Origin: Carex sylvatica
Taxonomy: Eukaryota > Streptophyta > Magnoliopsida > Poales > Cyperaceae
Reading direction: 5' to 3'
DNA length: 64,000 bases
Assembly (NCBI GenBank): GCA_964058845.1
Contig: CAXKVR010000069.1
Coordinates: 17,412 to 81,411 of the forward strand
Each line of letters begins with the position of its first letter. Positions within the stretch are counted from its first letter, which is position 1. This document shows positions 2,708 to 38,599 of this stretch, piece by piece. The notes beneath the pieces were generated by a model. That model did no database searches. It saw only the letters and a list, made by a program, of their open reading frames with translations, and had not been told where the DNA came from. The position numbers were made by a program, and so were the translations under genes.

Positions 2708-3000
2708 CGGCCTTTTTTATTAATACCCAAAAAACAAAACTAAATTTTAAAAATAACCTTGACAAAAAAAAAAAATTTAATTAACCCAACCGCCCGGGCC
2801 CGGGGCGGCCCAAAATACAAGCGACCCGCCTGGGCCTCGGGCGGGTCACATGGAGAGCAAACCGCCCCCACAGCGGTTGGTCCATTGGTGAGCAAAACCG
2901 CCCCAGAGACGGGCGGTCCACTATGCATTCAACTATCCCCATTCTCTGTCTTCTCTCCCTTCTCTGTCTCCCCTCCGCACCAGAAAAAGAAAGAGAAAAA
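2708..3000 (+). repeat. Left TIR of MULE-1
   Basis: Matches the reverse complement of 15225-15523 almost throughout. The outer ~60 bases are AT-rich. Then comes a strongly GC-rich block (roughly 2788-2920) with several copies of the pair AACCGCCCC / GGGCGGTCCA, then a CT-rich stretch and the shared CTCCCCTCCGCACCAGAAAA. The GC block is CpG-dense in an AT-rich setting and lies upstream of the transposase leader, so it probably holds the promoter; that role is inferred from the MuDR precedent. Confidence 0.9.
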
Positions 3001-3488
3001 AAAAACGAAGTCAGAGAGCGATTTTACTGTCTGAGAGAGGCAATTTTTAGGCGATTTTACTGTAGCAGAAGGTATTTATTTATTTATTTTTTAATTATAG
3101 TAATTACTGTTCTATTATCTGTAACTACTGTAACTATCGTAATTACTGTAGCAAAGTTTTTTTTTTTTCTAATTAGATTACTGTACCCGTTATAATACCA
3201 TATTTCTTAATGAAAACCAACTAATTTTTTTCCATTTCTTAATTTTTTTTAATTTCATTTATTCAGAAATAATTTGATTAATTAATTATTGATTTTCAAC
3301 AATCTAAAGTTCTATACATTGATTGAGTTATATATTTATCTTCTTCTTTTTCAATTTATTCAATTTTTTTTTAAAATGAAACTCAAAAATTGATTGAAGC
3401 GAATCTCAGATATCTTTATCTATTATTGATGTACAATTACTGTAATACTTATAAAATTATTTTTGAAATGTAGTTTGGTAAGGAAAAG
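3001..3488 (+). promoter_or_regulatory. Transposase 5' leader with probable leader intron
   Basis: AT-rich leader between TIR and start codon. A donor AGAAG/GTATTT near 3071 and an acceptor ...TTGAAATGTAG/ at about 3473 suggest a ~400-bp intron in the 5' UTR; the coding start follows 16 bases later. The same AAATGTAG acceptor precedes the PMD start codon in this family. The segment near 3095-3155 contains repeated GTAATTACTGTA words, expanded greatly in MULE-2. Splicing is inferred from the sites only. Confidence 0.45.
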
Positions 3489-3861
3489 ATGTTAGTTGCA
3501 TTGTATATGGGCGGCAAGTTACAAAAGAGTGAAGATGGCGTGCAGTACACGAAAGATGCTTCATTTGGCTTCGAGATTAATGAAAATACCACATTTCAGG
3601 CACTTAAAGAGCTAATATACGAAAAGACTGCTGTAAACCCCAACAGGTATGAAATAGAATTGGCTACACGGATTGACAACTCACGTGGGGTGGGGGGTAG
3701 ACCTTACTTTGTGAAGTTTCCAATAACAGATGCGAATTTGTGGAGAGTTGTGTACACTCAAATTGCGGCCAGTGGGGTCCAGGTAATGGACATATATTCG
3801 AAGAGGGTTCCCCGGGCTAGGGCTGGACCTTCAAGTACGACTAGGGCTGGACCTTCAGGTT

Positions 3862-4034
3862 ATGAAAATTCAGGTTATGACAGCCAGGGGTACCAGCAGG
3901 ACTCCCCATATGACAGCCAGGGGTACCACCAGCACTCCCCATATGACAGCCAGGGGTACCACCAGCACTCCCCATATGACAACCAGGGGTACCACCAGCA
4001 CTCCCCTTATGACAACCAGGGGTACCACAACTCC
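3862..4034 (+). repeat. Coding 33-bp minisatellite in the transposase (MULE-1)
   Basis: About five units of 33 bp encode an 11-residue motif like YDSQGYHQHSP. The reading frame is kept because the unit is a multiple of three. MULE-2 (21160-21380) has more and more diverged units; MULE-3 (37545-37700, minus strand) has about five. Copy number therefore varies between family members. The region is probably a disordered linker between the N-terminal and DNA-binding parts. Confidence 0.85.
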
Positions 4035-5426
4035 CATGAAAATATTGAAGAGTTACCACCACCACCCAGACAGACACCCATAATCCCTAGATTTCCAACT
4101 ATGCCAGAGTCAGGACCGGTACCCGTTAATCGAACTGATATTGATATTAATGTTGATGCTATTGATGCCATACCAGAAAGGGAGATGGAAACGGGGGATG
4201 AATACCAAGGGGTTTGGGAATCTGATGACTTATCAGATGGTGATGCAAATGTACTAGGTTTATCCAGGGCAGAAAAATTCCCGATTAGAGGTCGGGGAAA
4301 TAAGCATCCGGTCACCACATTCAACGATACTACAGCTTTCGAAGAGGCAGACATTAGTTTCTTTGGTCCTCGTGTTAAATACAATCAGGAACTTGCCGCA
4401 GGGCAACTTTATACAAACATAGACGAACTTGTAAAGAAAATCAATGAGACCCATGTTCACGGCAACTGGGAATATAAAATAAACAAAAGGGAGCGAACAC
4501 GGTTAGTTGTGCTATGTAAAACTCACCCGCGGTGCGAGTTCTGCCTGTATGCAACCCCTGCGGGTTCAGTGGAAGCATGGATGATTAGGAAGTGTGAACC
4601 ACCTCACACGTGTAAGTCTGCATCCACAATGACAGACCATGCACAGCTGACGGCATCACTAATTGCCGATGCAATTGAGGAGGACATTAAGTTGGATCCA
4701 TCGATGAGCATCAAGGCGGTGGCTAGAACTGTGAGACACAAATACAAATATGTAACCCCAAAATACAACAGGCTGTGGAGAGGTCGTGAACTTGCGGTTT
4801 GCAGAATATTCGGTAGTTGAAAGGATTCATACGGCTATCTGGCACCATTGCTCCAGGCCATGGCAAATACAAACGTCGGGACCGCATATGAACGATGGCA
4901 TGGCCCTTTTTTTGATAAGGATGGAGTACTAATAGAGGGAGCTCAACAATTCAAGGGCATAGCATGGGCTTTTGGGGCTTGTATCCAAGCTGTGCCATAC
5001 ATCAGACCCGTTATCAGCATTGATGCATGCTTCATGTCCGGCCGTTATGAGGGGAGGCTACTGATAGCATGTGCATATGATGCTGAGAACCAGTTGTTGC
5101 CTTTGGCCTTTGCAATTGTTCAGAAAGAGGATGGTGAGAACTGGGGATTCTTTATGCAGTTTTTAAGGAGACGTGTGATTGGAGAAGGAAATTTTTTCTG
5201 TGTGATATCAGACCAGCACAAAGGAATAAAATATGTTTTTGATCGTGAAGATTACGGTTGGTCAACGCGTACTGGGTAGTGTGTGCACAGGTTGTGTATG
5301 CAACACGTTGCGGAGAACCTTTCCAAGGCAACCGGAAATGACAAGTGGGTTCTAGAAACATTTAGACAAAATTGCAGAAAGAAAAAGCCGAGAAGGGTGG
5401 TAGAGATGAGTAGAAATTTTGCAAAG

Positions 5427-5529
5427 GTATATATATTTCAATTGTGTACATATATTATTGTATTTTTCGAAAACTATTTTTTCAGTACAATTATTTACTC
5501 ATATTATTTTATTTTCTTATTTTTTTTAG
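5427..5529 (+). other. Transposase intron 1 (MULE-1)
   Basis: Donor GCAAAG/GTATATAT and acceptor TTTTTTTAG/TACATGCC bound a 103-bp AT-rich intron in phase 0. Removing it joins ...NFAKV-type sequence to YMPKANLYLM in one frame. MULE-2 keeps the donor and part of the intron before its deletion breakpoint. Confidence 0.8.
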
Positions 5530-5690
5530 TACATGCCAAAGGCAAATCTCTACTTAATGAAGGTGGGCAAAAATAATCCCAAAGATGTAAACGAAGATGT
5601 AGCATACGAGAAAATATATCAATCCCGTGATGGAGGTTGGCGTTGGGGAATTATGACCACCAACGGGTCGGAGTCGCTGAATGCAGTCTT

Positions 5691-5695
5691 CAAGC
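5691..5695. repeat. 5-bp target-site duplication (CAAGC), left copy
   Basis: CAAGC immediately precedes the LTR terminus TGTCACACCCC and is repeated exactly at 8780-8784 after the other terminus ...TACGTCACA. Five bases is the standard Ty3-gypsy duplication. Confidence 0.92.
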
Positions 5696-8600
5696 TGTCA
5701 CACCCCGAGATCAGGGGCATGACGGTATCGCCGTGAATATATAGATCGTATATATTCACCAGGCATTTACGATGAGATAAATGGTGTTTTTATCCCAAAC
5801 CGAACACTTAATCAATTTTATTAAATCTGAAATCAGTTTAAAACTGATCCGAAACTTTTCAAAACTTTTATACATGCCTTTGTAAATTCGATTCGATAAA
5901 ACCAATAGAACAATGACTTATCATATCAGAAAACCAAATTTTTTTTTTCTATTTATATCTACCCGGATTAGTCAGAATTATAAATATCAGGTACCGTGGA
6001 GTATAGACCCTCCACGCCGGTCATCCCACCCGTATTCATTTAAACCCCCAAATTCATATCATGTCACAACAAAAACATATATGCAAAAGACCATATAACT
6101 TTTAAAACATAAACTTTGAAAACATAAAAGCATACATACACATAGCATGGAAAGCATAAAGCAAGCACATAAAATTTTAAAACATAAATCGAAACCGTTT
6201 AGAAATATTTACGCAAGTCCGGTTAGCTGGATATATATACAACAAAAGTTGATCCAAGTACTAAACAAGTACAACGATCTCAAAACAGGGCATACATATA
6301 CCTAACACCTCAGATAGCTCACTGTCTGATCCCGAAAGCCTCTAGTCCTTCTTTCCTGAAATGTTTCACAAGGAAACGGGTGAGAAAAACCTTTTCGCGG
6401 TTTATCTCAGTGCCGAAGCTACTGGATTTATCAGATATTCACGTCAGAACTAAATACGGAACTAAAATCAGAGTTAAAGCATGAATGCAAAGCTTTGAAT
6501 CGATAAACAAATGAATCTACATCTTTAAATGCCTTTAAACAGAATCATCAGAAACATATCAGAATATTGGGTCTTAATTAAACTCAGATATCTGGTAGCA
6601 CATGCAGATGTTCCACCGAACTGGTCCCAGAACATACCTGCATCTGTAGGGTTACATACACCTACAGATGTCGCTCCCCGTGCAATCAAATCAGACCCTC
6701 ATCTGCAGTGCTTTGGCTTAACAATTTACAAAAGACTGGTTCTTAATCAAACATTACAGTTCCAATCATACAGATATATCCTTTCCAGTATTTCGTTCCA
6801 GAAATCAGAGCAGAAATCAGAATAACAGAATCTTATCTACCACAGTTATAGTCACAGAATAACAGATCCCCATTCCAACCGGTTTGGACTCAGAGGGGTC
6901 GTTCCCCAATGCGCATATGGTTCCCAAAATCGAAATCTAGTGTATACTCTAGATTTCGCAGAACAGAATATCACTTACAGTGATATATATATATATAATA
7001 GTAGCAATTCACTGTGGTTTCATTCTCTATCAGAATCAGAATAACAGTTCAATCGGTAAACCATACCAGAATGCAGATCAACAGATAAAACAGTTCAATT
7101 AGTTATGCAATGCTCAGATGATGCTTGAAATCAGAAATTCAAAATGCAATTTAAAAACGTCCTATTTAATTCCTAATTGAACCTCAGGAAAAATCCCGTG
7201 AACCCCCGCACCTTTGTACTTTTCGTGTCGCTTACGGTTGGTCTGAACTCCTTTCGGTATTCCGGGATTCACCTGATTGTCCTGCTAAACCTGCTATAAC
7301 ATACAGTTACACGCTGTATTAAATCCTTACTCTATGTTCGATAAGTTACGCTTCGATCGGTACGTTTTTATGTAATTTATTTGACTTAATTCATTTCTGA
7401 ATTTTCAGATTTTATACTATGGTTGCGGCCCGCAAGTCACCATACACATACCATTACGGCCCGCAAAGATTGGTACAGAAGTGTTTTAAGCTTTGTTTGC
7501 AACCGAATTCCGATCGGTTTCGATCGAAACTCGTTCTAAACACCGTATATTGGTTCCTAACATGTTGTAGGTTGGTACGGTAGAGTTTTCATATCAATTG
7601 ATATCATGTATACCTGATACCGGTTTGGTACCGGTGCTAACTTGCTCGATTAGCAAACAATTCAGATTTTTGGTTATCGATAATATACAAGATTGGTATT
7701 CATGGTACATATACCTATCTATATCATGCAACACATATATTCTAAGTTCTTGGTACCAACTTGATTACCCAATTAACCCTCGATTCGGATCGAAACTCGG
7801 TATAACAATCGAATCGATACAAAATTGAAATGCATGATACTTATTCAATTCAAATACACATATATGACATCCTATAGTCAATTAATCATCATGCAAATCG
7901 ATTTCAATCAAAGTTAGGGTTTCGATACTCAGATTTTCAGAACTTCGATCAAATCTCAGAAAATTCGATGTAGAACGATTTAGAAACCTCAATTATACAA
8001 ATTAACACCTTAATTTCAGAATCTAAACAAACCCTAACTAAATTTTCGGATTCAAAGTGAAATCTTAAGAAATCGGTATAAAATCAAGAAATCAACAAGT
8101 AATTCGAATGGAATTCGATCAATTCAACACGGTTTCGCATTTCTAACAAAAATCGATTCAATTCGACAATTAGGTTTTCAAGGGAGATGAAATATACCAA
8201 ATTGGAGAGAAGGAGATGATCAAGGTGGTAGTACTTTGCTCCAAACTCGATTTCGCGTACGTCTGATCGATTCGGTGTACTCGGATCTCACTTTTTTCTC
8301 TCTTCTCACCTTCTCCCTCTCTTTTCCTCTTTGTTTCCGCCACCCACCACACACAACACACACACACACGTGTACACACAAGGAGTCACGGCCAAAGGAA
8401 GAGAAAAATCAAGGTTTTGGGTTATTTTTGGCAATTTTGCAAATATGCCCATTAAACTTCCAATATTGCATATATGTAAATTTTTCAAGAAAAGCCCTTG
8501 CTTAATTTAAATAGAAATTTGCATTATAGTATATATATATATACATATAGATATATTCATATGTATAATTTAATGATCCATTTGATATTTCAATTCGGAT

Positions 8601-8779
8601 AGGTTTATTTTTATTCGATCAAATCAGAAATTCGATTCTAAATGCCTTGACTCAGAAAAAGTCAGAATAAAATTAGAAAAATATATCAAGGCATCAGATT
8701 TAAATTCGGAAAAATTCAGATGAACTTAATATTTCGAAATTATTATTATTTTAATATTCTTAGATTTCGCTACGTCACA
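5696..8779 (-). mobile_element. Solo LTR of a Ty3-gypsy element, 3,084 bp
   Basis: A long sequence with TG...CA ends, flanked by CAAGC duplications and lacking any gag or pol. On the minus strand it begins TGTGACGTAGCGAAATC and ends GGGGTGTGACA. Its 3' end resembles the ends of the LTRs at 25543-27503 and 54991-57722: the terminal CACCCCG, the GTGAATATA/TATATTCAC block, a conserved GTTTCCTGAAA...GGTGAGAAA segment near 6350-6400. Its insertion splits the MULE-1 transposase and is the latest event in the local nest. A full element presumably inserted and recombined between its LTRs. Assignment to Tekay rests on the similarity to the 54991 LTR that follows a Tekay-like pol. Confidence 0.88.
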
Positions 8780-8784
8780 CAAGC
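8780..8784. repeat. 5-bp target-site duplication (CAAGC), right copy
   Basis: Exact repeat of 5691-5695; the transposase frame continues from here (AGT CGG ATG TTG). Confidence 0.92.
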
Positions 8785-9799
8785 AGAGTCGGATGTTGCC
8801 TGTGGCTGCAGTTGTAGAAGACACATTCTACAAGTTAAATGCCTGGTTTCAAGAACGGCGTGCTAAGGCCGCAGAATTAATAATAATGAACCAGTCATTT
8901 TCAACAAGGGTGGAGGAGAAACTAAGACAACACAGGGACAAAGGTGCAACTATGACCGTGATCCCGATGGGTAATGATGGTACTGAATTCGAAGTGCAAA
9001 ATCCAAATGAATACGTTCCTACCAGTCGCAAACCAGATGGCACTATGGAGTTTGTGAAGAGGGCTTGCAAGTACGTGGTTAAATTCGGAGATGCCAGGGC
9101 GGTAACCTGTACATGCCAAGGACCCCAACTAAGTCACATACCCTGTAGTCACGTGATGGCTGTATGCCGAGTGAGGAACTACTGTGAGGACCACTATGTT
9201 GCTGACATGTATCGTACCGATTACCTTGTTTCCACTTGGGGTGGATCTTTCCATTCTTATCCCGATCAGCATGAGTGGCCTGCATATGTCGGTGATAGAA
9301 TACTTCCTTCAGAAGGATGGATAAGAAAGGGGAGGAGGAGACACAAGCGTGTTGTAATGAGCATGGACGAGATGGGTGGTAGGCGACCGTCGGGAAATCG
9401 GGCTCGCCGTTCTGTTTCTGACAGGCGCACGGCAGGTATGTAGTATTGTACGAAAATCATTTATGATCTTATTATATTACTAACTGAATTGTGTTCCTAT
9501 GTTCAGATGCCATAAACGAGCACAACGAAAGAGAAAATGCTAGAGTTGTTGCTGAAGCAACTGGTAGAACAGAACATCCCCCTCCTCCGAGCCAATCATC
9601 TAGTTGCCAAGCCTCTACAAGTAATGCCGCACCTGCAGTTGGTACCAGTAGAACTAGACGCATCATTGGTTTTTTGAGACGTGGTGGAAGGGGCAGATAA
9701 ACCTGCTATTGTGTGAAGATATTTGTGTTGTGTGAACTTATTTGTTTGGTTCGAGCTAAATTATGAAATAGAATTGTGTTGTTGACCTTTAATATACCT

Positions 9800-10840
9800 A
9801 GAATCAAGTTACTGCGGTTGTTTGGCTTTTCAAAGCAGGAAATGATGCAAAATAGCAAAAATACCCTCCAGTGCGGATCAGCCACCCGCACTGCGGACCA
9901 ACCCAGCCGCACTCACTGCCAGAGAAAAAGTCCGAGCCTAGTGCGGACGCACTGAGGCCAGTGCGGATGAGTCCAGCCGCATTCAGGACCTGGCCAAAAT
10001 TCAGAAAGTTTCAGAGAAGCAGAACCCATCCGCAGTGCGGGTCATCCATCCGCAGTTGCACCCGCACTGGACCAAATTTACACAGGTTAAAAGAGGAAAC
10101 TTGTCCCAGTGCGGGTGAAGCCACCCGCAGTGCGGGGCATCCATCCGCACTGGACCAAATTTACACAGGTTAAAAGAGGAAACTTGTCCCAGTGCGGGTG
10201 AAGCCACCCGCAGTGCGGGGCATCCATCCGCACTGGACCAAATTTACACAGGTTAAAAGAGGAAAGTTGTCCCAGTGCGGGTGAAGCCACCCGCAGTGCG
10301 GGGCATCCATCCGCACTGGACTAAATTTACACAGGTTAAAAGAGGAAACTTGTCCCAGTGCGGGTGAAGCCACCCGCAGTGCGGGGCATCCATCCGCACT
10401 GGACCAAATTTACACAGGTTAAAAGAGGAAAGTTGTCCCAGTGCGGGTGAAGCCACCCGCAGTGCGGGGCATCCATCCGCACTGGACCAAATTTACACAG
10501 GTTAAAAGAGGAAACTTGTCCCAGTGCGGGTGAAGCCACCCGCAGTGCGGGTCATCCATCCGCACTGGACCCGCAGAAAGCCAATAACTGTCCGGTTTGA
10601 CAGTTTTTCTATTTTTGGCGCTTTATGGAAGCGTTTTAGGATTACTTAAACAACCCCCCCCCCCCATGGCCTTTACTTTATTGCACTTTACTTTATTATT
10701 ATTTTCTGAAATTAATTATTTAGAGTTTAAAACTAAGTATTTTCCATACTCTCTGTGGATCGATACCTAAAGTACTACTTTGATAGAATTGTGCACTTGC
10801 AATTCGACTCAAAAGTGTTTAAGGTTTAAAAGGTACATCT
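9800..10840. mobile_element. Inserted block between the two MULE-1 genes, probably a gypsy LTR remnant
   Basis: This ~1-kb block is absent from MULE-3, where the two genes are separated by only ~350 bp. It contains the 83-bp minisatellite, then a C13 tract (10655-10667), and ends in a stretch CTCTCTGTGGATCGATACC ... TTGTGCACTTGCAATTCG (10750-10810). That last stretch resembles the LTR end and downstream leader of Athila/Tat-type Ty3-gypsy elements. Exact ends and a target duplication were not found, so the element type is an inference. Confidence 0.45.
9870..10575. repeat. 83-bp CpG-rich minisatellite
   Basis: From about 10027 the unit CCGCAGTGCGGGKCATCCAT ... CACAGGTTAAAAGAGGAAA repeats with a period of exactly 83 bp for about six units. 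Units differ by one or two bases (AAACTTGTCC against AAAGTTGTCC, alternating). The left flank 9870-10026 holds looser versions of the same words, including GTGCGGACGCAC, a 12-bp palindrome. The central units are nearly identical, so they were homogenised recently. Confidence 0.92.
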
Positions 10841-10941
10841 TATTATACTGAAGCTTTGTTAGACCTACAGTACTACAGTCAGACCTACATCACTGCAAAC
10901 TCAAAATACTACAGTCAGACCTACTCAAACTAAAAGGTACA

Positions 10942-13669
10942 TCATCCTCGTCGTTTCCTGCCGGAGGGAGACAACCTACGAGCCGCTATGCCTTTGCCAT
11001 CCCTGTGCGGCTGCACGTGCCTCTGCGGACTCGCATCTCCTAAATCCTCCTCCTCCATATCCTCGTCCTCCTCTCCCGTATACATGGGATGCGTACCTGT
11101 ACCGGCTGTCCATGGATCAAAAACACCAGCTGACTCTGCGGGTGCCGGGCCTGTACGTAGCTCCCATGGATCTTCCTCCCAGCTTGCAGCATACGTGGCA
11201 GGAGGCGGTGTACCAAATAATGCAGAGAAAAAGCCATCTGCAGTCTGAGATGCACTCCCTCCAGCCTCGTAGTCGTGCTCCATCTCCACTCCATATCGTG
11301 GCATGTGGGAGCCAATGTCCTCAGCATCTGTATCGAAGGGGGGCAGCTCATCCACGCTATAACTAGGCTCGGCATTCTAACGAGGTGCTCCATCCTAAAT
11401 TGAAATAATGTCAGTTTTGCTACGTACAAATAACTCTGCAATAAATAATATCAAACAGTAACTGACCGGGCCAAGCTCTACCGGAACTCCGTATTTATTT
11501 CTGTAAGCGTCCCATCCTTGTGTATTCAACACCCAGTGGTGGAACGCCCAACCCGAGTCATCCTCTACATAATTGAAAGTTAAGTGAGTTACAACAAATA
11601 ATTCGGTGAAAATAGAACCATTGCGTGTGTCCTACTTTTAATATTAACTTGCAATTACCTGCAGGAGGTGGTGGCATACCCTTAGCGTATATGGCCTCTG
11701 GTTGATAATCTGGATTACGCGGTGTCTTCTGTATATCCCGCCAATTGATGTTCTCCCCAGAATCGCGCAGCATGCCAACGAGGCGGCCTTCAAAACCGCC
11801 TGTCTCCACGATTGGTGCAGTGTGCTCGAGCATTTGGCATCCTATATATCGCCAAGCATCTCTCGCCATGCACACCAGGCTGTGTCCAACTCCTCTCATA
11901 GCTGTCAACATCTGCACACAACATGATTATGACAACAGTAAGTAATTAAAATTTACAATTTGTAATTACAGTATGTTTAAATTGTATTTACCGCGCGAGC
12001 ATTAATCGGACCCCAAGGCATGTAATTGCCAGATGAATCCATCAGTCTACGTCGAAGGTTGTCGCCATAATGGCCCGTAAGATAGACTGACGGCATGCCC
12101 CATCTCTGGTACCAGACGGCATATCTCAAATCCCCGGGACCAGCACCCACTGACGCTCCCGATGGCGGACTCCATAACTGCTGATCCGGATGTCGAGCCA
12201 AGCCGTACTCCAAGCTGAAATGCTGTCTCCAGTCGACTTTGGGCTTAGTGTGCGCCGTACTGTAGGTACAATTAATTAGAAATGAGAGAAACGGTGACAT
12301 TACTAAAGGGATAATAAAATTAAGTACGTAGTACTTACTTGTGAAACTTGTCGGTATCATCCTTACCCATCAGCGGGTTATCCGGAATGAAAGCATCCAA
12401 GCCAAATTGTCGAGACACCCGATCGGGATAGTGATACTCCACTATCCAGAAACAAACGACTGGTCCCCGATAATACCATAGTCGTGTCTGCTCCAGTGTC
12501 AGCGGGCTCAGCCATCTACGCTGATACCATGTACGATACGAAAACCAATCGACATTCGCATCTCGGAGCATCTGGAGCTGACCCCGAACATAAGAAACCC
12601 CCCTGCCTGTTTCTTCATAACTCTGATGACTGCCCCATATGGCACCGTACGCGGGGCATCTGTCTGGGGTAGGAACTCCCCATCGGGGATGTGGCAATGG
12701 TATAACTGGCCGATTTACAGGCAGATGTGACCACGACCAATGCTGTAGCAGAAGAAGCGGTCCAAAAATCTGTTTATTCCTCACCTGAAAATTTAACTTA
12801 AAATAAACACTTGGTACGTCTTATTCAACTTTCAATTACAACGTATATTAATACAGACTTACCAGACAGGCATGACTCAGGCCTCTGTATAAGTGGGCAA
12901 GGACCGCTCCACCCCAGTTCCATCTCGATTCTTTCTCTATGTTTCTCATCAGGGAGAGGTACATAATCGGGACCGCATCACCGCTGGAATCCTCGAACAT
13001 GACAGCACCACACAAATCCAGCACATACGCCCTAGTATACCTGTAATATAAAATAATCAATATAAATAATTGAGATTGTTGATTAACTACTAAGTTACTT
13101 TAAAGAGTGTAATGGTACCTCCTGACCGCCTCAATGTCAGCAGTCTCAGGAAATATCTGATTCTGAAAGAAGTGAGACCGGAGTGCCTTTAGAGAAATAC
13201 AGTACCCAGAATACCGGAACTCCTCCTCCTCCTCCTCCCCCTTCTTCTTCTTCTTCTTCAATTTCTTCTGCAGATTCTTTGGATCACACCCTAACAACTC
13301 CGGTATCATCCTCTGCAGGTTTGGATGGTCTGAGATGCCACCTATGGGCTCGCCATCAATGGGTAAACCCCATAATGCGCTCACATCATCAATGGGTAAA
13401 CCCCATAATGCGCTCACATCGCCAATGAGACGCGGTGCTTAACGTGATGGGTCCATAGAAGATGACTAAATGTATCAGGATCATGCGCACCATCTGTAAA
13501 ACCAGCCTGAGAACCCGCTCCAATCGGATCCTCATATGACGACGGACCCTCTCCAATCGGATCCACCGAGGACGTGCCCGCTACACTCGGATCCACGGCA
13601 TCTGGACCCGCTGCAGCCGGATCCGCTGCAAGCGCAGCTCGTACTCCCCACCGTCTAGATCTGGGCCAT
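10942..13669 (-). pseudogene. Plant mobile domain (PMD, MAIN-like) gene of MULE-1
   Basis: Same exon pattern as the MULE-3 copy: (reading leftward) 13669-13119, 13040-12863, 12784-12339, 12259-11992, 11911-11659, 11564-11467, 11394-10942, with GT-AG sites. Protein stretches such as YVLDLCGAVMF, GGAVLAHLYRGL and GPLLLLQHWSW are typical of the PMD family (MAIN, MAIL1 and 'phosphatase 7 long form homolog' proteins), which act in the nucleus in gene silencing and expression. Breaks: the start context has an extra base and quickly meets a stop (13652-13669); an internal deletion at about 13436 joins exon 1 to the middle of exon 2 and removes the conserved HTFHLPVGEMTVTL core; a 33-bp piece (DVSALWGLPID) is duplicated at 13364-13435; TAG at 11377-11379 replaces a Trp. 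Not functional. It lies convergent to the transposase. Confidence 0.88.
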
Positions 13670-15224
13670 ATTAATCAACCACAAATTTTAAAAATTAAAA
13701 TTAATTCGAAATTTTAAACAATTTATAAATATTTTCAACCAAATTCAAACCCTAATTGAACTGCAAATTCAAGCAATTAAAACCCTAAAATAGTGAATTA
13801 TTTATAATAAACTACTAATTATATGATATTAATACATCCAATAATTATACAATAACTATAGTATATATTTAATATATTAAGAATATACCATATTAATTTA
13901 GTAATAACAGTTAACAATCCGTAAAATAATCAATAACCACATGAAAATAATAATAATAATAAAGGTACATAAAATTTTATCATACTATGAAATTCAATAA
14001 ACTTTTATATAGTATGAAATTCACTTTTTAAAATAAAAATTATTGTGAAAATCGACAAACAAATAAAATTTGGAAAAAACATAAGTATGCATATATTTTT
14101 TTTAAATATTGATAATTTACTTGCAAAAAAGATTGTAATTTTTAAACAAATTTTCATATACTTTAAAATAATTAGTCAAATACATAAATTATCTATCTAC
14201 GATCTTTTCTCAAAAAAAAAAATAGCTTTTATAATTTTAATAATTTTAATAGCATTTATAATTTTAAAATTTAATTCCGCAATTTCCGCAATTTAATAAC
14301 ATTTACATAATTTAATAGCATTTACATAATTTAATAGCATTTATAATTAAAAAAAAATACATAATTACCGCAATTATAATTTCAAAATTTAATCCCGCAA
14401 TTTCCGTAATTTAATAGCATTTATTAATAACCCCCAATTTTCATAATTCGTGACATTATACCAATTCTAACAATTCATAATCGAATCGAATTTAACAATT
14501 ACACAACTTCATTACATTTGCATAAGTTACACAATCGAATAGAATTCAACAATTACACAATTTCATCACAATCGAGTCGAACCGAATCGATTTGAACCGA
14601 ATCGAACCGAATCGAACCGAATCGAACCGAATCGATTTGAACCGAATCGAACCGAATCGAACCGAATCGATTTGAACCGAATCGAACCGAATCAACCGAA
14701 TCAATTCAATTTCAATAATTACACAATTTAATCACAATCGAATCGAACCGAATCGATTTTAACCGAATCGAACCTAATCGATTTTAACCGAATCGAACCG
14801 AACCGATTTTAACCGAATCGAACTGAATCAATTCGATTTCAATAATTACACAATTTAATCACAATCGAATCGAACCGAATCGATTTCAATCGAATCGAAC
14901 CTAATTGATTTTAACCGAATCGAACCGAACCGATTTTAACCGAATCGAACCTAATCAATTTTAACCGAATCAATTTGAATCGAATCGAACCGAATCAACT
15001 CGATTTCAACAATTACACAACTTAATCGCATTCAATCAAATCGAAAACTTACCTGAGAGAAATGGAGCAATTCCAACGAGATAGACCGCGGAGACGTGCG
15101 GATTCATGGGCGGGGAGGTGCGAGCGAGCGAGGGAGACGAGAGGAGTGGCGCAGCAACGGCAGAGACAAGGACGGAGCACCGGCGACGGGGGCGGACTTG
15201 GCTGGGGCGGCGCTGGCTGGGGGT
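13670..15224 (-). promoter_or_regulatory. PMD leader intron and 5' exon of MULE-1
   Basis: AT-rich interval between the PMD start and the right TIR. A 5' leader exon (rightmost part, with a CATGAATCCGCAC-type stretch at ~15095-15107 on the minus strand) ends in a donor GG/GTAAGTTTTC-like site near 15055, and the acceptor would lie just before 13669. The intron is low-complexity and includes the GAATCGAACC repeat block at 14560-15010. No coding potential recognised. Confidence 0.4.
14560..15010. repeat. Degenerate GAATCGAACC repeats
   Basis: About 40 imperfect copies of a 10-bp word (GAATCGAACC, with GAATCGATTT variants), grouped into higher-order blocks that each end with AATTACACAATTTAATCACA. 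A shorter version on the opposite strand lies at 31145-31325 in MULE-3, at the same place in the PMD leader. The repeat therefore belongs to the family but has expanded here. Confidence 0.85.
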
Positions 15225-15523
15225 TTTTCTTCTTTTTCTTTTCTGGTGCGGAGGGGAGACAGTGAAGGGAGAGATGGGGAAGGGTTCAGGGGTCTATTTT
15301 GGAAGCATAGTGGACCGCCCGTCCCTGGGGCGGTTTGCTCACCAATGGACCGCCCGCTATGGGGGCGGTTTGCTCTCCCTGTGACCCGCCCGAGGCCCAG
15401 GCGGGTTGCTTGTATTTTGGGCCGCCCCGGGCCCGGGCGGTTGGGTTATTTTAAAAAATAAAAAAATTTCAAGGTTATTTTTAAAATTTAGTTTTGTTTT
15501 TTGGGTATTAATAAAAATGACCG
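15225..15523 (-). repeat. Right TIR of MULE-1
   Basis: Inverted copy of 2708-3000, with the same outer ~55 bases, GC-rich core (15310-15440) and the TTTTCTGGTGCGGAGGGGAG inner end. Lies just upstream of the PMD leader, so it probably carries that gene's promoter. Confidence 0.9.
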
Positions 15524-15532
15524 ATAAATGTT
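15524..15532. repeat. 9-bp target-site duplication of MULE-1, right copy
   Basis: ATAAATGTT, identical to 2699-2707, directly after the terminal GACCG. Confidence 0.93.
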
Positions 15533-16990
15533 GATAAAGGATTATCATTTAATTACATGAATATATAAAAAATATGTATTTTATATATTGAACATGACCT
15601 AAATGAATGAAACATTATATGGATTGTGTTTTGTGTCATTAATATTTTCATTGTGTCTTTAGAATCTTAGATATGAGATATGTAGATTTTTCACATAATA
15701 AATATATAATATGATTACTATTTAAATGCTATCTTAAGATAGGAATGAAATAGTAGTTCACTGTGTACAACTTGTACGGGAGAAATCTACATGTTAATAT
15801 TATAATTATCTCTTAATTTGAGTTATGATATTACTGGGCCCCTTGGTAAAGTGGAATTATATCGCATGCAATATAACTGATGTAGTTATAATTATAATTC
15901 ACTTGAGAGACCAAGAAAACAAATATAATGCAAAAATGACATGATCTTAGTTTGCATATTATTTGTAATATCATGTGACAATGATAGACACGAAATTAGT
16001 GAATTGAGTAAATAATTACTATGTCGTTTGGATAACTATAATGTAATGATTGAACATTTTATAGTTAATAATATAAAGTTTTATATTAATTCCAAGATGA
16101 CATAGATCATCTATGCTGTCACACCAACTGAAGAGAAACAACAAGTATTTTACATTTCATAATGATGTATAAGATAAAATACATGTGATGAAATGCTAAA
16201 ATAAAATGTCATAATATGACATGTTTAGACCATAAATAAATTTATGAAGTTATACAAATATTATTTGGTATAATGTTTGAATGCATTATAAGACTAATAG
16301 AAATATTATATAATAGAATAATATGAATAATATTATTTTTTCATAAATTAATTTATTAAACCAATAGTAAGATGAGATTATAAAGAGCATAAAATGGCTA
16401 AATAAGGCTAGTGGCATTTGTGTAATTGATTCAAACCTTGCACAAAGAGTTGTCCTAACCGTTGCCTATTTAAAGGGGTGTAATTAAGAAAAATTAAGCT
16501 ATTTTTTCTACCATAAACCTTAGCCAAAAATCCTCTTTGAGTATCCCCTTTCGTCTTCCCTTGGCTGAAATTTGTAAAAACTTCTCCTTGGTCGAAAGTT
16601 GTGCAGCTTGCTCCTAGGTCGAATCTCTTCTTGCTATGTGGTTGGATCTAAGCTTTGAACTTTATATTCATCTATCTAAGAGGTGTGTTAGTTCGTTGTT
16701 TAGGTTCAAGGTGAACCAAGAGGTGCTTTCAAAAGAACGGTGGTTCCAAGAGATTTAGAAGAAAAATCGACTTCCCTCTAACAAGAGATTTGACAATCTC
16801 TTTAGGTATAAATTTTTATCTCCTCTTGTGTGAGAAATGAAAGAATTTATTTATTTTTATTTAGTGCACATTAGGTGCTTGATGAAACTATTAAAAAATA
16901 ATCTTGTTTGCTATTGTCATATAAATAAGGTCCTTTGTGTATTGAGCCAAGTGGTGATAGAAAAAATTTTAAATTCTCACCATATAGGCA
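15533..16990 (+). mobile_element. Remainder of the copia LTR and end of element
   Basis: Continues the sequence cut at 2707. No open frame. It contains a short TTTAAAGGGG-type promoter-like stretch near 16470 and a pyrimidine-rich region (16505-16640), features common in LTR R/U5 regions. It ends near AAATCCCAACA (16998-17008), after which the satellite resumes. Called an LTR by position and by the CAACA end; no second LTR is present to confirm it. Confidence 0.45.
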
Positions 16991-17009
16991 TATGCATGAA
17001 ATCCCAACA

Positions 17010-18273
17010 TGTTGTACCTGCGTTGCAACCACCATCTTCTCTTGCTATCTAGAGACACTACTAGTGCATTGCAAAGACCTTCAATTGGAGTGTTGTATTA
17101 GGGTTCCAACCACCCTTTTTTCTTGTCATATGGAGACACTACTAGTGTGCTGCAAAGACCTTCAAATGGAGTGTCGTATTATGGATGCAACGACCCTCTT
17201 TTATTGCTATATAGGGATACTACTAGTGTGCTGCAAAGACTTTCAATTGGAGTGTTGAATTAGGGTTGCAACTACCATTTCTATTGCCATATGAAAACAA
17301 TACTAGAGTACTGAAAAGACTTTCAATTGGAGTGTTGTATTAGAGTTGCAACCACCCTCTTCTCCTGCTATTTAGATGCACTACTAGTGTGCTGCAAAGA
17401 CATTTAATTAGAGTGTTATATTATGGTTCCAACTAACCTCTTTTCTTGCCATCTGGAGACACTACTAGTGTGCTTCAAAAACATTTAATTGGAGTATTGT
17501 ATTAAGGTTGCAACTACACTCTTCTATTGCCATATGGAGACACTACTAGAGTGCTACAAAGACTTTCAGTTGTAGTGTTGTATTGCAGTTGCAACCACCC
17601 TTTTCTCCGACTATATAGAGACACTACTAGTATGCTACAAAGAGCATTAATTGGAGTGATGTATTAGGTTTACAACTACTCTCTTATGTTGTCATCTGGA
17701 GACACTACTAGAGTGCTACAAAGAACATCAATTTGAGTATTTTATTAGGGTTGCAAATACCCTCTTTTCTTTCCATATGGAGACACAACTCGAGAGCTAC
17801 AAAGACCTTCAATAGGAGTGTTGTATTAGGGTTGCATCTACCCTCTATGCCGTATAGGGACACTAGTATAGTGTTGCAAAGACCTTCAATTGGGGTGTTG
17901 TATTAGCGTTGTAACCACCCTCTTCTCCTGCTATATAGGGACACTACTAGTGTGCTGCAAAGAACTTCAATTGGAGTATTGTATTAGAATTACAACTATC
18001 ATCCTCTCTTGCTATCTGGAGACACTACTAGTGTGCTATAAAGGCCTTCAATTGGAGTGTTTTACTAGGGTTGAAACCACCCTCTTCTTTTGTTATATGG
18101 AAACACTACGAGTGTGCAGGAAAGAACTTCAATTGAAAGGTTGTATTAGGGTTGCAACCACCATCTTTTCTTGTCATCTTGGAACACTACTAGTGTGCTG
18201 CAAAGATCTTCAATTTGTGTGTTATATTAGGTTTATAACTACCATCTTCTGGTTCCATCTAGAGACACTACTA
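17010..18273. repeat. 81-bp satellite array B, reversed relative to array A
   Basis: About 15 units of ~81 bp carrying GAGACACTACTAGTGTGCTG, CAAAGACCTTCAATTGGAGT and GTTGTATTAGGGTTGCAACC. These are reverse complements of array A phrases with fixed differences (GTGTGCTGCAAAGACC here against GAGTGCTCCAAACACC there), so A and B are distinct subfamilies. The open frame is now on the plus strand (for example 16935-17258 and 17890-18318), the same frame relative to the unit as in array A. Confidence 0.9.
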
Positions 18274-18277
18274 TTTT

Positions 18278-18471
18278 TTGAAACCTTGACAATGATTGTC
18301 AAGTATAATTTTTATTAATTAAAACATAAAATACATCCATCGTTCTACATCAAAAATATCATCCAAACTATATCAACATCTAAAAAACATATACATCTAA
18401 ACATCACATCTAACAACACAAACAAGTAAAACAACAAAAGAAATAAATCATATCTTTTAGTGGTAGACACC
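18278..18471 (-). mobile_element. Retroposon 3'-end fragment inside the satellite
   Basis: About 194 bp that matches 29411-29606 closely (both start AAACCTTGACARTGATT and end TGGTAGACAC). It is preceded by a T run at 18272-18277, which on the minus strand is a short poly(A) tail. It interrupts array B, which resumes at 18472. It looks like a truncated LINE or LINE-derived 3' end on the minus strand. No clear target duplication; part of a satellite unit is missing at the junction. Confidence 0.7.
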
Positions 18472-18570
18472 GATTGGAGTGTTGTATTAGAGTTGCAACT
18501 ATCATCTTATCTTGTCATATGGAGACACTATTAGAGTGCTCCAAAGACCTTCAATAAAAGTGTTGTAGAT
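18472..18570. repeat. Last satellite unit of array B
   Basis: One and a bit units (GATTGGAGTGTTGTATTAG ... GAGTGCTCCAAAGACC) after the retroposon fragment. It mixes B-type (CAAAGACC) and A-type (GAGTGCTCC) diagnostic bases. Confidence 0.8.
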
Positions 18571-20334: not shown

Positions 20335-20680
20335 ATTAGTCAATTAATGTACGATTACTGTACGATTACTGTATGATTACTGTACGATTACTGTACAATT
20401 ACTGTACAATTACTGTAGTATTTTACTGTATGTTTACTGTACAATTACTGTAGTATATACCGTACAATTACTGTACGATTACTGTACAAGTACTGTAGTA
20501 TTTACTGTACAATTACTGTAGTATTTACTGTTCGATTACTGTACAATTACTGTAGTATGTACTGTACGATTACTGTAGTATTTACTGTACGATTGCTGTA
20601 GAATTTGCTGTACAATTGCTGTAGAATTTGCTGTGCAATTACTGTAGAATTATCGTTCAATTACTGTAAGTGTTGCATTT
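20335..20680. repeat. ATTACTGTAC short tandem repeats in the transposase leader
   Basis: More than 25 imperfect copies of a 10-11-bp word (ATTACTGTAC, ATTACTGTAGT, ATTTACTGTAC). MULE-1 and MULE-3 have only a handful of ACTGTA words in the same leader, so this is a local expansion. It probably lies in the leader intron. Confidence 0.9.
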
Positions 20681-20783
20681 ACCTCTAGCAACAAGTTTTT
20701 ATTTTTTTATTTGTCATTTATTATTGTATAATTACTGTAATACTTATTAAATTTTTGTTTAAATGTAGTTTGTTAAGGAAAAG

Positions 20784-22760
20784 ATGTTAGTTGCACTGTA
20801 TGTGGGCGACAAGCTACAAAAGGGTGTAGATGGCGTGTATTACACAAAAGATGCTGCATTTGGCTTCGAGGTTAATGAAAATACCACATTTCAAGAACTC
20901 AAGCATCTAATATACGAAAAGACTGCTGTAAACCCCAACAGGTATGAAATAGAATTGGCTACACGGATTGATAACTCACAAAGGGGTGGGGCGGGTAGAC
21001 CTTACTTTGTGAGGTTTCCAATAACATATGCGAATTTATGGAGAGTTGCGTACACTAAATTTGAGTCTAGTGGGATCTCGGTAATGGACATATATTCAAA
21101 GAGGGTTCCCCGTGCTGGGGCTGGACCTTCTAGTGTGGCTGGGGATGGACCTTCAGGTTATGACAATTCGGGTTATGACAACCAGGGGTACCACCACCAC
21201 TCTCATTATGACAACCAGGGGTACCACCACCACTCCCCTTATGACAACCCGGGGTACCACCACAACTCCCCTTATGACAACCCGGGATACCACCACAACT
21301 CTCCTTATGACAACTAGGAATACCACCACCACTCTCCTTATGCCAACCAAGGGTACCACCACAACTCTCCTGAAAATATTGAAGAGTTACCACCACCACC
21401 CAGACAGACACCCATAATCCCTAGATTTCCAACTATGCCAGAGTCAGGACCGGTACCCGTTAATCGAACTGATATTGAAATTGATATTGATGCTATTGAT
21501 GCCATACCAGAAAATGAAATGGAAACGGGAGATGAATACGAAGGGATCTGGGTATCTGATGACTTATCAGATGGCGATGCAAATGTACCAGGTTTATCCA
21601 GGGAAGACAAATTTCTGATTAGAGGTCGGGGAAATAAGCATCATGTCGCCACATTCAATGATACCACAGCTTTTGAAGAGGCAGACATTACTTATTTTGG
21701 CCCTCGTGTTGTATACAATGACGAACTTGCCCCGGGACAACTTTATACCAACATAGATGAACTTATAAAGAAAATCTATGAGACTCATGTTCACGGCAAC
21801 TGGGAATGTAAAATACACAAAAGGGACTGAACAAGGTTAGTTGTGCTATGTAAAACTCACCCGCGGTGCGAGTTCTGCCTTTATGCAACCCCTGCGGGTT
21901 CAGGGGAAGCATGGATGATTAGGAAGTGTGAACCACCTCACACATGTAAGTCTGCATCCACAAGGACAGACCATGCACAGCTGACGGCATCACTAATTGT
22001 CGATGCAATTGAGGAGGATATTAAGTTGGATCCATCGATGAGCATCAAGGCGGTGGCTAGAACCGTCAGACACAAATACAAATATGTAACCCCAAAATAC
22101 AACAGGCTGTGGAGAGGTCGTGAACTTGCCATTTGCAGAATATTTGGTAGTTGGAAGGATTCATACGGCTATCTGGCACCATTGCTCCAGGCCATGGTAA
22201 GTACAAATGTCGGAACTGTATATGAGCGGTGGCATGGCCCCTTTTTTGATAAGGAGGGAGTGCTAATAGAGGGAGCTCAACAATTCAAGGGCATAGCATA
22301 GGCTTTTGGTGCTTGTATCCAAGCTGTGCCATACATCAGACCCGTTATCAGCATTGATGCATGCTTTATGTCTGGCCGTTATGAGGGGAGGTTACTGATA
22401 GCATGTGCATATGATGCTGAGAACCAGTTGTTGCCTTTGGCCTTTGCAATTGTTCAGAAAGAGAATGGTGAGAACTGGGGATTCTTTATGCAGTTTTTAA
22501 GAATACGGGTGATTGGGGAAGGAAAATTTTTCTGTGTGATATCAGACCGGCACAAATGAATAAAATATGTTTTTGATCGTGAAGATTATGGTTGGTCAAC
22601 GCGTACTGGGCAGTGTGTGCACAGGTTGTGTATGCAACACGTTGCGGAGAACCTTTCCAAGGCAACCAGAAATGACAAGTGGGTTCTAGAAACATTTAGA
22701 CAAAATTGCAGAAAGAAAAAACCGAGAAGGGTGGTAGAGATGACTAGAAATTTTGCAAAG
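20784..22760 (+). pseudogene. mudrA-like transposase, 3'-truncated (MULE-2)
   Basis: Same gene as at 3489: start MLVALYVGDKL, repeated YDNQGYHHHSP units, MuDR-type DNA-binding region with CKTHPRCEFC, first Asp in SIDACF and second Asp in VISDRHK, and the CxxH pair HRLCMQH. The frame is continuous with no indels but has four stops: TAG at 21315-21317, TGA at 21828-21830, TAG at 22299-22301 and TGA at 22557-22559. The coding exon ends at the intron donor (GCAAAG/GTATAT at 22760), after which the deletion breakpoint follows. The catalytic Glu, SWIM finger and tail are lost. Confidence 0.9.
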
Positions 22761-22789
22761 GTATATATATTTCAATTATTTACATATAT

Positions 22790-22845
22790 TATTGTATTTT
22801 TCGAAAACTGTTTTTCGAAAACTGGTATTGTATTTTTCAAATCCC
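22790..22845. other. Deletion junction with repeated filler
   Basis: TTTTTCGAAAACTG appears twice in tandem (about 22797-22826), followed by a second GTATTGTATTTTTC. This lies exactly where transposase intron 1 meets the reversed PMD exon 1. Short duplicated filler is the mark of end-joining or abortive gap repair. Confidence 0.7.
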
Positions 22846-22995
22846 CTACCAGTCGTATCCTCATATGACGACTAGCCCTCTCCAGTCGGATCCACCGAGG
22901 ATCCGCCTGCTCCAGTCGGATGCACAGCATCTGGAGCCGCTCCAACTGGACCCGCTGCAAGCTCAAGTCGTACTCCCCACCGTCTAGACCTGGGC
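22845..22995 (-). pseudogene. PMD gene exon 1 remnant (MULE-2)
   Basis: On the minus strand from the ATG at about 22995 the frame reads MPRSRRWGVRLELAAG and continues through SSVDPTGEG to a TAG. It aligns with the exon 1 starts at 13669 and 32927. Here the start region is intact, with Trp as codon 7, where MULE-3 has a stop; this shows the ancestral reading. The rest of the gene is deleted. Confidence 0.8.
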
Positions 22996-24764
22996 ATACT
23001 ACATTAACCAAAAAATATATATTAATCAATAACAACTTAAGAAAATCAAATTTTATTCGCAATTTTAAATATTTTCTAAATATTTTCAACCAAATTCAAA
23101 CCCTAATTCAACTGCAAATTCAAGCAATTGAAACCATAAAATGGTTAATTAATAATAATAAACTCCTAATTGTATGATATTAACATATTCAATGATTATA
23201 CAATAAATATAATATATTATATTATTTTTATAATAATTATTAAATATATTAAAAATATAACATATTAATTATATAATTAATATAAAAATTATATAATAAT
23301 TATTAATCAAAATATACAAATTATATAATATTATAATAATAAGTACTTAATATATTAAGAATATAATATATTAATTATATAATTAATATAAAAATTATTG
23401 TCAAATTTACTTTTTATAATTAAACTTATTGTATATGCTTGTATAAGTGTCAGACGTACAGAAATGACCCATTTTTATAACTTATAATTGTAAAATTATA
23501 AAATTAACAAGTTACATGTTGATGCTTATCAATTAAATACTAGTGAAATTATGCTAGAATATATTAATTATTATATGAAAAAAGAAAACTACAAAAACAT
23601 ACAGTATCTGTTTTATTTCCAATAAAATTGATCATTATCTTTTGCAAATCATATAATTAGATTTACATTCAAAATGCATGCAACAATTTAAATAAAAAAT
23701 CTCAAAATGCATGCAAAATTTTGCAATAAAATCGAAAAACATGCAATTTACTTGAAAAAAAAAATGTAACTAGTGAAATTATGCTATAATATATTAATTA
23801 TTATATGAAAAAAAAAATTACAAAAACATACAATATCTGTTTTATTTCCAATAAAATTGATCATTGTCTTTTGCAAATCATATAATTAGATTTACATTCA
23901 AAATGCATGCAACAATTTAAATAAAAAAATCTCAAAATGCATGCAACAATTTAAATAAAAAATCTCAAAATGCATGCAAAATTTTGCAATAAAATCGAAA
24001 AACATGCAATTTACTTGAAAAAAAATATGTAATTTTTAAACAACTTTTGATATATTTCAAAATAATTTGTTTTACTTGAAATTAATTTATATCGATATAG
24101 ACATGTATTTCGTCAACTAACTTCAAACATCCCTCAACCCTAAATTTTTTAAACAATAAATCCTAACTCTAATTTTTTAAATAATTCAAACAATTGATCC
24201 GTAATAACCCTAAATTGAACCATAAACCCTACATTTTTAAGCAATTTACAACCATAAACCCTAAATAACCCTAGTACATCCAAAAAATTCAAACAATTTC
24301 ACCATAATAGTTTTACCATAATAACCATATCACATTCAATTCAACCAATCCAGACAATTCAACTAATTCGAGTAATTCAACAAATTCGAAACAACTCTAA
24401 TTGAACTAATTCAACCATTATCGAGTCACAATTCAACAAATTCAACAATTGAACTAATTCAAACCAAAACCCTAACCCTAACCCTAAATTGAAAACTTAT
24501 TGAATCAAAAAAAAAATTACATGAGAAGCTCGGTGCAGAGGCAGTGGTGGTGCTCGGTGTAGCGGTGCTCGGTGAAGCGGCTCGGTGCAGCGGCTCGGTG
24601 AAGCGGCTTGAGGGAAAGGAGAGAACAAGATGGAGAGGGGTTGGCCGGAGAGGGGAGGTGGGGTTGGGCGACACTGGGCGGCACGGGCGGGTTTTGATTT
24701 TTCGGTTTGGTGCGGAGGGGAAGAGGCAGAGAGGAGGAGAGGGAAGGGTTCGGCTGGGTTAAAA
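22996..24764. other. PMD leader region of MULE-2, AT-rich, with a 230-bp tandem duplication
   Basis: Corresponds to the long leader intron of the PMD gene. A ~230-bp segment starting CTAGTGAAATTATGCTA at 23540 is repeated from 23770. The second copy has a further internal repeat of ~37 bp around CTCAAAATGCATGCA. A near-coding-like GC-richer stretch at 24520-24770 is the 5' leader exon plus inner TIR. No gene besides the exon 1 remnant. Confidence 0.7.
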
Positions 24765-30135: not shown

Positions 30136-30579
30136 AGCTAAGGGCACCAAAAATATGTAAACAACCCAAATCCGAAATGCTCCACCAGATTCCTCAAATC
30201 TGAATTATTTGTACAGTTTAATGGACGCTCCTAATAAGCCGAAATAGTACGACTAATGGAGCTAGCTCAACTGGGCACTCTGACCCCCATTAAAGGTATA
30301 ACAAATCATAAATGAAGGTATGGTATAACAATTCAGATTTTAAATTAGTTTATAAAAAAATAAAAAGATATGCTAAATAATAACAAAATATTGCAAAATA
30401 AACTAAATAAAGAATCAATGATTCACATGACATGACGTGACTAAGTCAATATACTTAACGTGTTATTTTCGACATAAAAACACACACATCACGCGAATTA
30501 ATATGCCACATATTATATAAAAAGTCACATAATGTGACTGATATGCAAAACGTACCGTGATATCCTATAACATTTATAC
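30136..30579. other. Intergenic, AT-rich
   Basis: No gene, repeat or element seen in this ~440-bp stretch before MULE-3. Confidence 0.6.
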
Positions 30580-30890
30580 CGACCATTTTTATTAATATCC
30601 AAAAATAAAACGAAATTTTAAAAATAATCTTGAGTAATTTTTTTTTTAAAATAACCCAACCGCCCGGGCCTGGGACGGCTCAAAATACAAGCGAACCGCC
30701 TGGGCCTCGGGCGGGTCACAGGGAGAGCAAACCGCCCCCACTGCGGGCGGTCCAGAGAGAAGCAAACCGCCTCCACTGCGGGCGGTCCAGAGAGAAGCAA
30801 ACCGCCCCAGGGTCGGGCGATCCACTATGCATTCAAAAACCCTTCCCCATTCCCTTCTCTGTCTCCCCTCCGCACCAGAAAAAGAAAAAG
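30580..30890 (+). repeat. Left TIR of MULE-3
   Basis: Same layout as the MULE-1 TIRs. One GC-rich piece of ~33 bp (GGGCGGTCCAGAGAGAAGCA with AACCGCC) is duplicated in tandem at about 30745-30805. Continues into a CT-rich leader (30850-31030). Confidence 0.88.
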
Positions 30891-31029
30891 GAAAAAAAAA
30901 AACAGGCGGCCACCCCAGCCAAGTTCGCCCCCGCTCCCGCCGCCGGTGCTCCGCTCTTGTCTCCGCCGCTGCTGCGCCACTCCTCTCCTCTCCCTCACTC
31001 GCTCACTCTCTCTCTCGCTCGCACCTTCC

Positions 31030-35939: not shown

Positions 35940-36285
35940 TTGCAGAGTTTTTTTTATTGTGATATAGGCCTGACTGTAGTATTTTGAGTTTGGGACTGTT
36001 GTGTTATATGTCTGGGTTTGTTTTATTTTATATTTCATGTTGGCTTTTATCTTTTGTTTACTTTACATTTCGTCGTTTTTATCTGCGTGCATATCTTTTT
36101 ATACTTTACATTTCGTCATTTCTACTCATTAGTTACTACGTAATCATAACAAATCAAAATATTACATATCATATTAAAAGCCCAACATTACAATTAAAGT
36201 TCAACAACACAATTAAAGTTCATAACTTAGTTCAAACCAAACAAATAAGTTCACACAACACAAATAAGTTCACACAATAGCATGT

Positions 36286-38590: not shown

Positions 38591-38599
38591 CGTTTACAG

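Follow-up and report, generated by a model that had tools for sequence, protein, structure and literature searches.

A two-gene MULE family of Carex sylvatica and its plant mobile domain gene, a candidate VANC-like anti-silencer

In maize MuDR the two genes of the transposon converge, and their promoters lie in the terminal inverted repeats (TIRs). Here we present a family of Mutator-like elements (MULEs) from the sedge Carex sylvatica in which the gene that converges on the transposase encodes a plant mobile domain (PMD) protein. The copy from which the family was recognised, W1, occupies positions 2708-15523 of a 64,000-nucleotide stretch of contig CAXKVR010000069.1 (the window, at its full length), and its relatives were sought in a 64-Mb, 950-contig assembly. 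We find that PMD is almost certainly a selected element gene rather than cargo, because most copies carry a convergent PMD, the trees of the two genes agree and the variants shared between copies are under purifying selection.

VANDAL elements are a further point of reference. The targets described for the VANC21 protein are short words within noncoding tandem repeats, located upstream of VANA and in introns of VANB and VANC, and these repeats often expand or contract (PMC5735166, PMC10398659). VANDALs are described either without TIRs or with short degenerate TIRs (PMC6446971). Table 1 of the same work (Dupeyron 2019) assigns PMD and/or a domain of unknown function (DUF) to half the VANDAL group and lists an antisense PMD for plant MULE groups 42 and 47-50; the antisense-PMD architecture of MULEs is already known.

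The PMD was first described with a rice MULE, and in grasses and Amborella PMD-C forms fusions with MULE transposases; the same paper speculates about an anti-silencing role of transposon PMDs (PMC5418596). A review mentions VANC21 together with PMD as possible agents of counter-silencing (PMC8616336) and a meeting report treats them apart (PMC6419827); the passages of both that concern these proteins make no structural link between them. For the host proteins MAIN, MAIL1 and PP7L, contact with chromatin is described as not known (PMC7156037, PMC9899485). No precedent for the co-divergence, the test of selection or the VANC21 link presented below is found in the relevant passages of the papers cited.

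Linkage, descent and selection of the PMD gene

W1 has the complete outline of a MULE: TIRs of about 300 bp, on the transposase side at 2708-3003 (+) and on the PMD side at 15224-15523 (-), 86% identical to each other; an exact 9-bp target duplication, ATAAATGTT, flanking it at 2699-2707 and 15524-15532; and two convergent genes. The duplication and the TIRs place the element exactly where the initial annotation had put it. The transposase starts at 3489 (+) and the multi-exon PMD gene at 13665 (-), each next to its own TIR as first proposed, and both sequences are present in convergent order in 15/15 compared copies (13 further elements, fetched as 20 stretches, and two window copies). Traces of both genes in this order had been claimed for all three copies in the window and are indeed found in W1, W2 and W3. 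Both marks of a MULE are present, namely a transposase domain with a SWIM finger and long TIRs with a 9-bp duplication (8-11 bp expected).

In the spliced proteins of sister copies Pfam recognises the PMD (PF10536, E 5.8e-67) and, in the transposase, MULE (PF10551, E 4.4e-11), Transposase_mut (4.6e-6) and SWIM (1.7e-5), with bit scores of 43.5 vs a cut-off of 27.6 for PF10551 and 24.7 vs 19.6 for PF04434. The transposase has three coding exons and 993-1026 aa in open copies. The PMD gene has eight coding exons and seven introns, and its protein of 812-818 aa in open copies begins with MPRSRRWG in the printed copies and with MPKSRRWG in C943a. GT/AG borders are kept in 15/15 copies for four of the PMD introns, in 14/15 for two and in 13/15 for the first; the start exon is preceded by a noncoding exon near the TIR, with a GTAAG donor in all 14 copies listed. 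The W1 deletion aside, seven of 11 coding indels in PMD are multiples of three and the other four are each private to one copy. A PMD frame break in C943a was considered as a family-wide feature and rejected, being private to that copy. The genes lie on opposite strands and so do not form the one protein of a PMD-MULE fusion. Nor is this a Pack-MULE, a gene fragment without transposase: the transposase is there in 15/15 copies and its frame is open in six (C157, C140, C282, C78, C221 and C559).

Both frames are open in five of the 15 (C140, C282, C78, C221 and C559). C157 was rejected as an intact copy, since a 9.4-kb long terminal repeat (LTR) retrotransposon with identical 2.7-kb ends, a very recent insertion, splits PMD exon 3 (L013-L014). 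In C170 the PMD is truncated by three codons and the transposase carries stops. All six transposase-open copies have their own target duplication (five exact, one with 8/9 bases), so several independent, recent transpositions took place while both genes were still whole. Across all 15 copies the duplications comprise seven exact 9-bp cases, two with 8/9 bases, one without a match and five that were unscorable by the pattern used.

Genome-wide, a transposase probe gave 144 matches, reduced to 140 copies by removal of four second fragments. A convergent PMD lies within 15 kb of 113 of them (63 of the 78 copies that are at least 82% identical and 50 of the 62 that are 46-52% identical), three have a PMD in the other orientation and for 24 a PMD was not found; these searches scored part of the candidates, and repeated places were dropped. 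A second search, together with a limit raised from 12 to 15 kb, shrank the class without PMD from 68 to 24 of 140. An apparent absence of PMD from 47 close transposase copies was rejected as largely a search artefact, with 117 of 610 PMD candidates scored, and all three "PMD-missing" copies that were fetched did carry PMD. From the PMD side, 61/143 matches in the first comparison had no listed transposase inside 12 kb.

Families B (L032), C (L033), D (L034, L035) and E (L036), read directly, have the layout of family A. In midpoint-rooted FastTree phylogenies with public relatives included, PMD and transposase recover the same branching order, E,(D,(C,(B,(A,A2)))). Local support for the nodes that fix it is 0.86-1.00 for PMD and 0.95-1.00 for the transposase, and in neither phylogeny do the PMD-transposase fusions of grasses fall within the A-E clade. 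The best match of the transposase is to Carex rostrata (93%, P0105) and that of PMD to Carex littledalei (61%, P0001). The eudicot host supposed in the initial annotation is thus probably wrong, Carex being a sedge and a monocot. A search for two families of host marker genes gave no match.

Two results speak against an unbroken partnership of the genes. One is the set of 24 transposase copies with no PMD found within 15 kb among the part of the candidates scored. The other is the synonymous divergence (dS) between A and A2, which at 0.36-0.38 for PMD and 0.20-0.22 for the transposase differs 1.7-1.9-fold. The two histories are therefore not identical and the genes have not always travelled together; the gap (L029-L031 vs family A) suggests module exchange between subfamilies.

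Pooled over all pairs, the Nei-Gojobori ratio is the same in both genes (PMD 0.399, transposase 0.395). Such pooled values are blurred by copies in decay, and variants were therefore split into private and shared classes and evaluated with 2000 simulations preserving mutation type and cytosine context, on 14 copies with a duplicate removed. Private variants number 52 synonymous, 110 nonsynonymous and 12 stop in PMD (expected 48.0, 115.5 and 10.5; ratio 0.89, P=0.27) and 56, 132 and 10 in the transposase (expected 50.3, 134.9 and 12.8; ratio 0.86, P=0.19), and in both genes they are compatible with neutrality after insertion. Shared variants number 30, 23 and 0 in PMD (expected 14.1, 35.9 and 3.0; ratio 0.28) and 43, 38 and 0 in the transposase (expected 20.6, 56.3 and 4.0; ratio 0.30), with P=0.0005, the floor of the simulation, for each gene. 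Along shared lineages, purifying selection on PMD appears equal to that on the transposase; among the copies within one genome, PMD would have been kept as strictly as the transposase itself. A 9-copy subset gives the same picture (shared PMD P=0.002, shared transposase P=0.0005), and the outcome, first obtained on all 15 copies, is unchanged without C157.

Between A and A2, omega is 0.24-0.25 for the PMD core, 0.54-0.72 for the PMD tails and 0.13-0.23 for the transposase. Among private coding variants 237/372 are C>T or G>A. The share of transitions is lower in shared (83/134) than in private variants (262/372), not significantly so (P=0.08), and reduced methylation in active lineages, considered on this basis, is unsupported. 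Taken together, linkage, selection and co-divergence bear out the proposal of the initial annotation that PMD is a second element gene and not random cargo: it accompanies most of the transposase copies found, it has not evolved neutrally from the start, and it is spread over families A-E, which share layout and branching order, rather than confined to one recent lineage.

Predicted fold, leader arrays and the proposed function of PMD

When the fold predicted for PMD relatives is compared with solved structures, one clear match stands out, DNA-bound VANC21, and by this prediction the relatives share a defining trait of VANC proteins. A PMD profile searched by sequence against solved structures gave two matches (E 0.14 and 0.46), neither of them a VANC chain, and a fragment of the DUF1985-like open reading frames of the genome had no VANC chain among its 10 matches. 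At E<=1, DUF1985 is detected in 15/44 PMDs. The structural report on 9lnj may already note the resemblance of PMD and VANC21. What MULEs use PMD for is a matter of speculation in the pertinent passages of PMC5418596 and PMC8616336, and the predicted fold offers a testable function, sequence-specific DNA binding of the VANC kind.

Tandem word arrays occur in the noncoding DNA of the element, and ATTACTGTA is a candidate for a target word. The window has 22 matches to it, where 0.82 would be expected; every one falls in a transposase leader (W1-W3) and is oriented with the transposase. The words TACTGT/ACAGTA occur 6-26 times per 800 bp in the leaders of 13 scored copies and 23 times in the W2 leader, vs a window mean of 0.85. 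Allowing one mismatch, an array 20-mer is found at 55 places genome-wide vs 0 for the reversed control, and most of the places listed adjoin family copies. Arrays of other words occupy noncoding parts of families B and C.

On the strength of the fold match, the arrays and known VANC biology, we incline, with some reserve, to the reading that PMD is a VANC-like sequence-specific anti-silencer acting on its own family. The family would be a two-gene autonomous MULE whose first gene is the Mutator transposase (MULE, SWIM) and whose second, the PMD protein of 812-818 aa, would be needed for the spread of the element, as the selection on it suggests. PMD would serve as a sequence-specific DNA-binding domain that reads short repeated words in the noncoding DNA of the element, the first candidate target being the ATTACTGTA arrays that lie past the left TIR and ahead of the transposase start. 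PMD at these arrays would prevent or remove host silencing, so that the transposase could be expressed and copies could move. For such a protein the VANC of VANDAL elements is a better model than mudrB. A wider proposal, tentative and in our estimate somewhat more apt to fail than to hold, is that the plant mobile domain in its entirety belongs to the VANC DNA-binding fold as one of its branches, with MULE members acting as family-specific anti-silencers on tandem leader words and MAIN/MAIL1 sharing the fold. If this were true, one domain would underlie both a host pathway of silencing and a counter-defence of transposons.

Several findings weigh against the anti-silencer reading, among them the dS gap between A and A2 and the 24 transposase copies with no PMD found, both described above. 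The fold models were made from PMD relatives and not from the family-A protein itself; the Foldseek E-value of the first model against VANC21 is only 0.0087, and for a second, poorer model Foldseek alone does not list VANC21. DUF1985 scores 12.2 bits in the L034 protein and 17.5 bits in another case, under the Pfam cut-off of 35.1, and Pfam lists none in the family-A PMD or in its closest relative, P0001. The PMD leader has repeats of a different word from that of the transposase leader, and therefore no single motif is strongly common to both ends; the word found in both leaders is a weak AATTAC. Arrays are weak in family D, and the window holds no excess of the VANC21 motif YAGTATTAY (4 vs 3.8 expected). 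Tandem repeats are common in AT-rich transposons, and a shared fold is not proof of a shared function.

Among other explanations, the best surviving one likens PMD to mudrB: a second gene for transposition, helping directly in insertion or TIR handling and having no role in silencing. Maize MuDR likewise has two genes and its mudrB is apparently required for integration (PMC6446971); the convergent layout, the selection on PMD equal to that on the transposase, and two short TIR-only elements with exact 9-bp duplications that seem mobile in trans are in its favour. We nevertheless think it unlikely, as the sole clear match of the modelled fold is an anti-silencing DNA-binding protein and the roles described for host PMD proteins are in silencing and gene expression (PMC5418596, PMC7156037).

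PMD could instead be a decoy of MAIN/MAIL1 that binds PP7L or other partners and weakens PMD-dependent host silencing generally, leaving its own DNA unread. Transposon silencing depends on MAIN and MAIL1, which interact with PP7L (PMC7156037), and transposon PMDs have already been speculated to be counter-silencers (PMC5418596, PMC8616336); such a decoy, which leaves both the family-specific arrays and the match to a DNA-bound structure unexplained, is distinctly improbable. Very little weight falls on PMD as a self-repressor that binds its own leader and limits the activity of the element: a PMD that binds DNA might act as a repressor no less than as an activator, and the C>T/G>A share of private coding variants (237/372) would fit methylation of copies after insertion, but the selection on PMD acts along lineages that transposed and the closest fold is that of an anti-silencer. 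Passive host cargo of the Pack-MULE type merits next to no credence: MULEs do often capture host genes, and the MULE PMDs of grasses and Amborella have been read as captures (PMC5418596), but the single orientation in 113/140 copies, the congruent trees, the presence of PMD in 15/15 compared copies, the purifying selection equal to that on the transposase and the lack of shared stops all oppose it.

Copies in the window and in the genome

None of the three window copies is intact. In W1 three exact ATTACTGTA words lie in the transposase leader at 3142-3444 (+), followed by coding exon 1 at 3489-5426 (+), with a stop near residue 443, and by the first part of coding exon 2 at 5530-5695 (+). This exon is interrupted at 5696-8779 by a 3,084-bp insertion with TG...CA ends and a 5-bp duplication, CAAGC (junctions placed by eye), which is probably a solo LTR foreign to the MULE family. 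The second part of exon 2, with the SWIM zinc finger, follows at 8785-9435 (+) and exon 3 at 9507-9700 (+); exon ends were set by offset from copy C943a. Tandem repeats of 83 bp separate the two genes at 9976-10639. The PMD gene of W1, modelled on sister copies with eight coding exons, spans 10942-13665 (-), its remnant running from 13665 down to 10945 and then into a stop codon. The 3' end of its noncoding first exon, with the GTAAG donor, was placed by eye at 15053-15100 (-), and GAACCGAATC-type tandem repeats occupy the leader intron at 14528-15045. The damage to W1 amounts to two early stops in the transposase, the 3,084-bp insertion and the deletion of PMD codons 83-158. Arrays of a satellite-like repeat of about 81 bp flank the element at 1-2330 and 16962-18567, related to each other in inverted orientation at 70-76%.

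The second copy, W2 (20354-22997, +), resembles subfamily A2 and has a ATTACTGTA array with part of each gene: transposase at 20784-22808 and, of PMD, only codons 1-52 at 22997-22842 (-). The third, W3, has TIR matches at both ends, approximate outer limits of 30569-38848 and the reverse orientation (-), with PMD at 32927-35936 (+) and transposase at 38078-36330 (-); the 3' part of its transposase is lost and a stop stands at PMD codon 6, counted from 0. Elsewhere in the window, open frames at 53061-54515 that are RNase H- and integrase-like resemble, by eye, a Gypsy-type element.

Searches with the TIRs scored the best 40 of 150 and the best 40 of 357 candidates and give lower bounds. At least 16 TIR pairs enclose both genes (W1, 12 fetched copies, C475, C844 and C164), to which W3 and C943b are added; no TIR pair around a full-length transposase without PMD is among the matches listed. 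The right flank is the same in C943b (L018) and C170 (L022), which probably go back to a single insertion duplicated along with its surroundings, the alternative being allelic contigs. Among shorter forms, C664 (L039) is a 3.7-kb internally deleted copy that retains transposase codons 1-468, the PMD leader and the TIRs at both ends, with no PMD coding match. C231 (L037, 2.2 kb) and C316 (L038, 1.1 kb) resemble the family in their TIRs only; since these TIR-only elements still have exact 9-bp duplications, they were probably mobilised in trans. In family E (L036, C120), several tandem copies of a TIR of about 170 bp lie on the PMD side at 6745-7544.

Comparison with known systems

Maize MuDR resembles the Carex MULE in pairing a transposase with a second gene and differs in that the second gene here is a PMD. 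MULE groups 42 and 47-50 of Dupeyron 2019 are alike in antisense PMD, 9-bp duplications and SWIM finger; there, however, PMD is a table entry whose seven main-text uses all stand in one place, and the text around them gives no selection, co-divergence or function for it (PMC6446971). The PMD-transposase fusions of grasses and Amborella (Ikeda et al. 2017; rice P0096) are likewise MULE-borne PMDs (PMC5418596), whereas the Carex PMD has introns of its own and is encoded separately, on the strand opposite the transposase. With host MAIN and MAIL1, as described in the passages cited, the protein shares the PMD domain and a context of silencing; unlike them it is transposon-encoded and multi-copy, with a conserved core and fast tails.

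VANDAL21 (Hiun) of Arabidopsis differs from the Carex MULE in having three genes, VANA, VANB and VANC, in place of two, and VANDALs as described have no TIRs or short degenerate ones, against about 300 bp here. The second protein of the Carex element is a Pfam PMD, with DUF1985 detected weakly in some relatives, and the VANC21 motif is not enriched. As for likenesses, VANDAL21 as set out in the VANDAL papers cited is also a MULE with an extra gene, whose protein diverges faster than the transposase, and it too has, ahead of the transposase, variable noncoding tandem repeats that contain short words; its DNA-bound VANC21 is matched by the predicted fold of PMD relatives.

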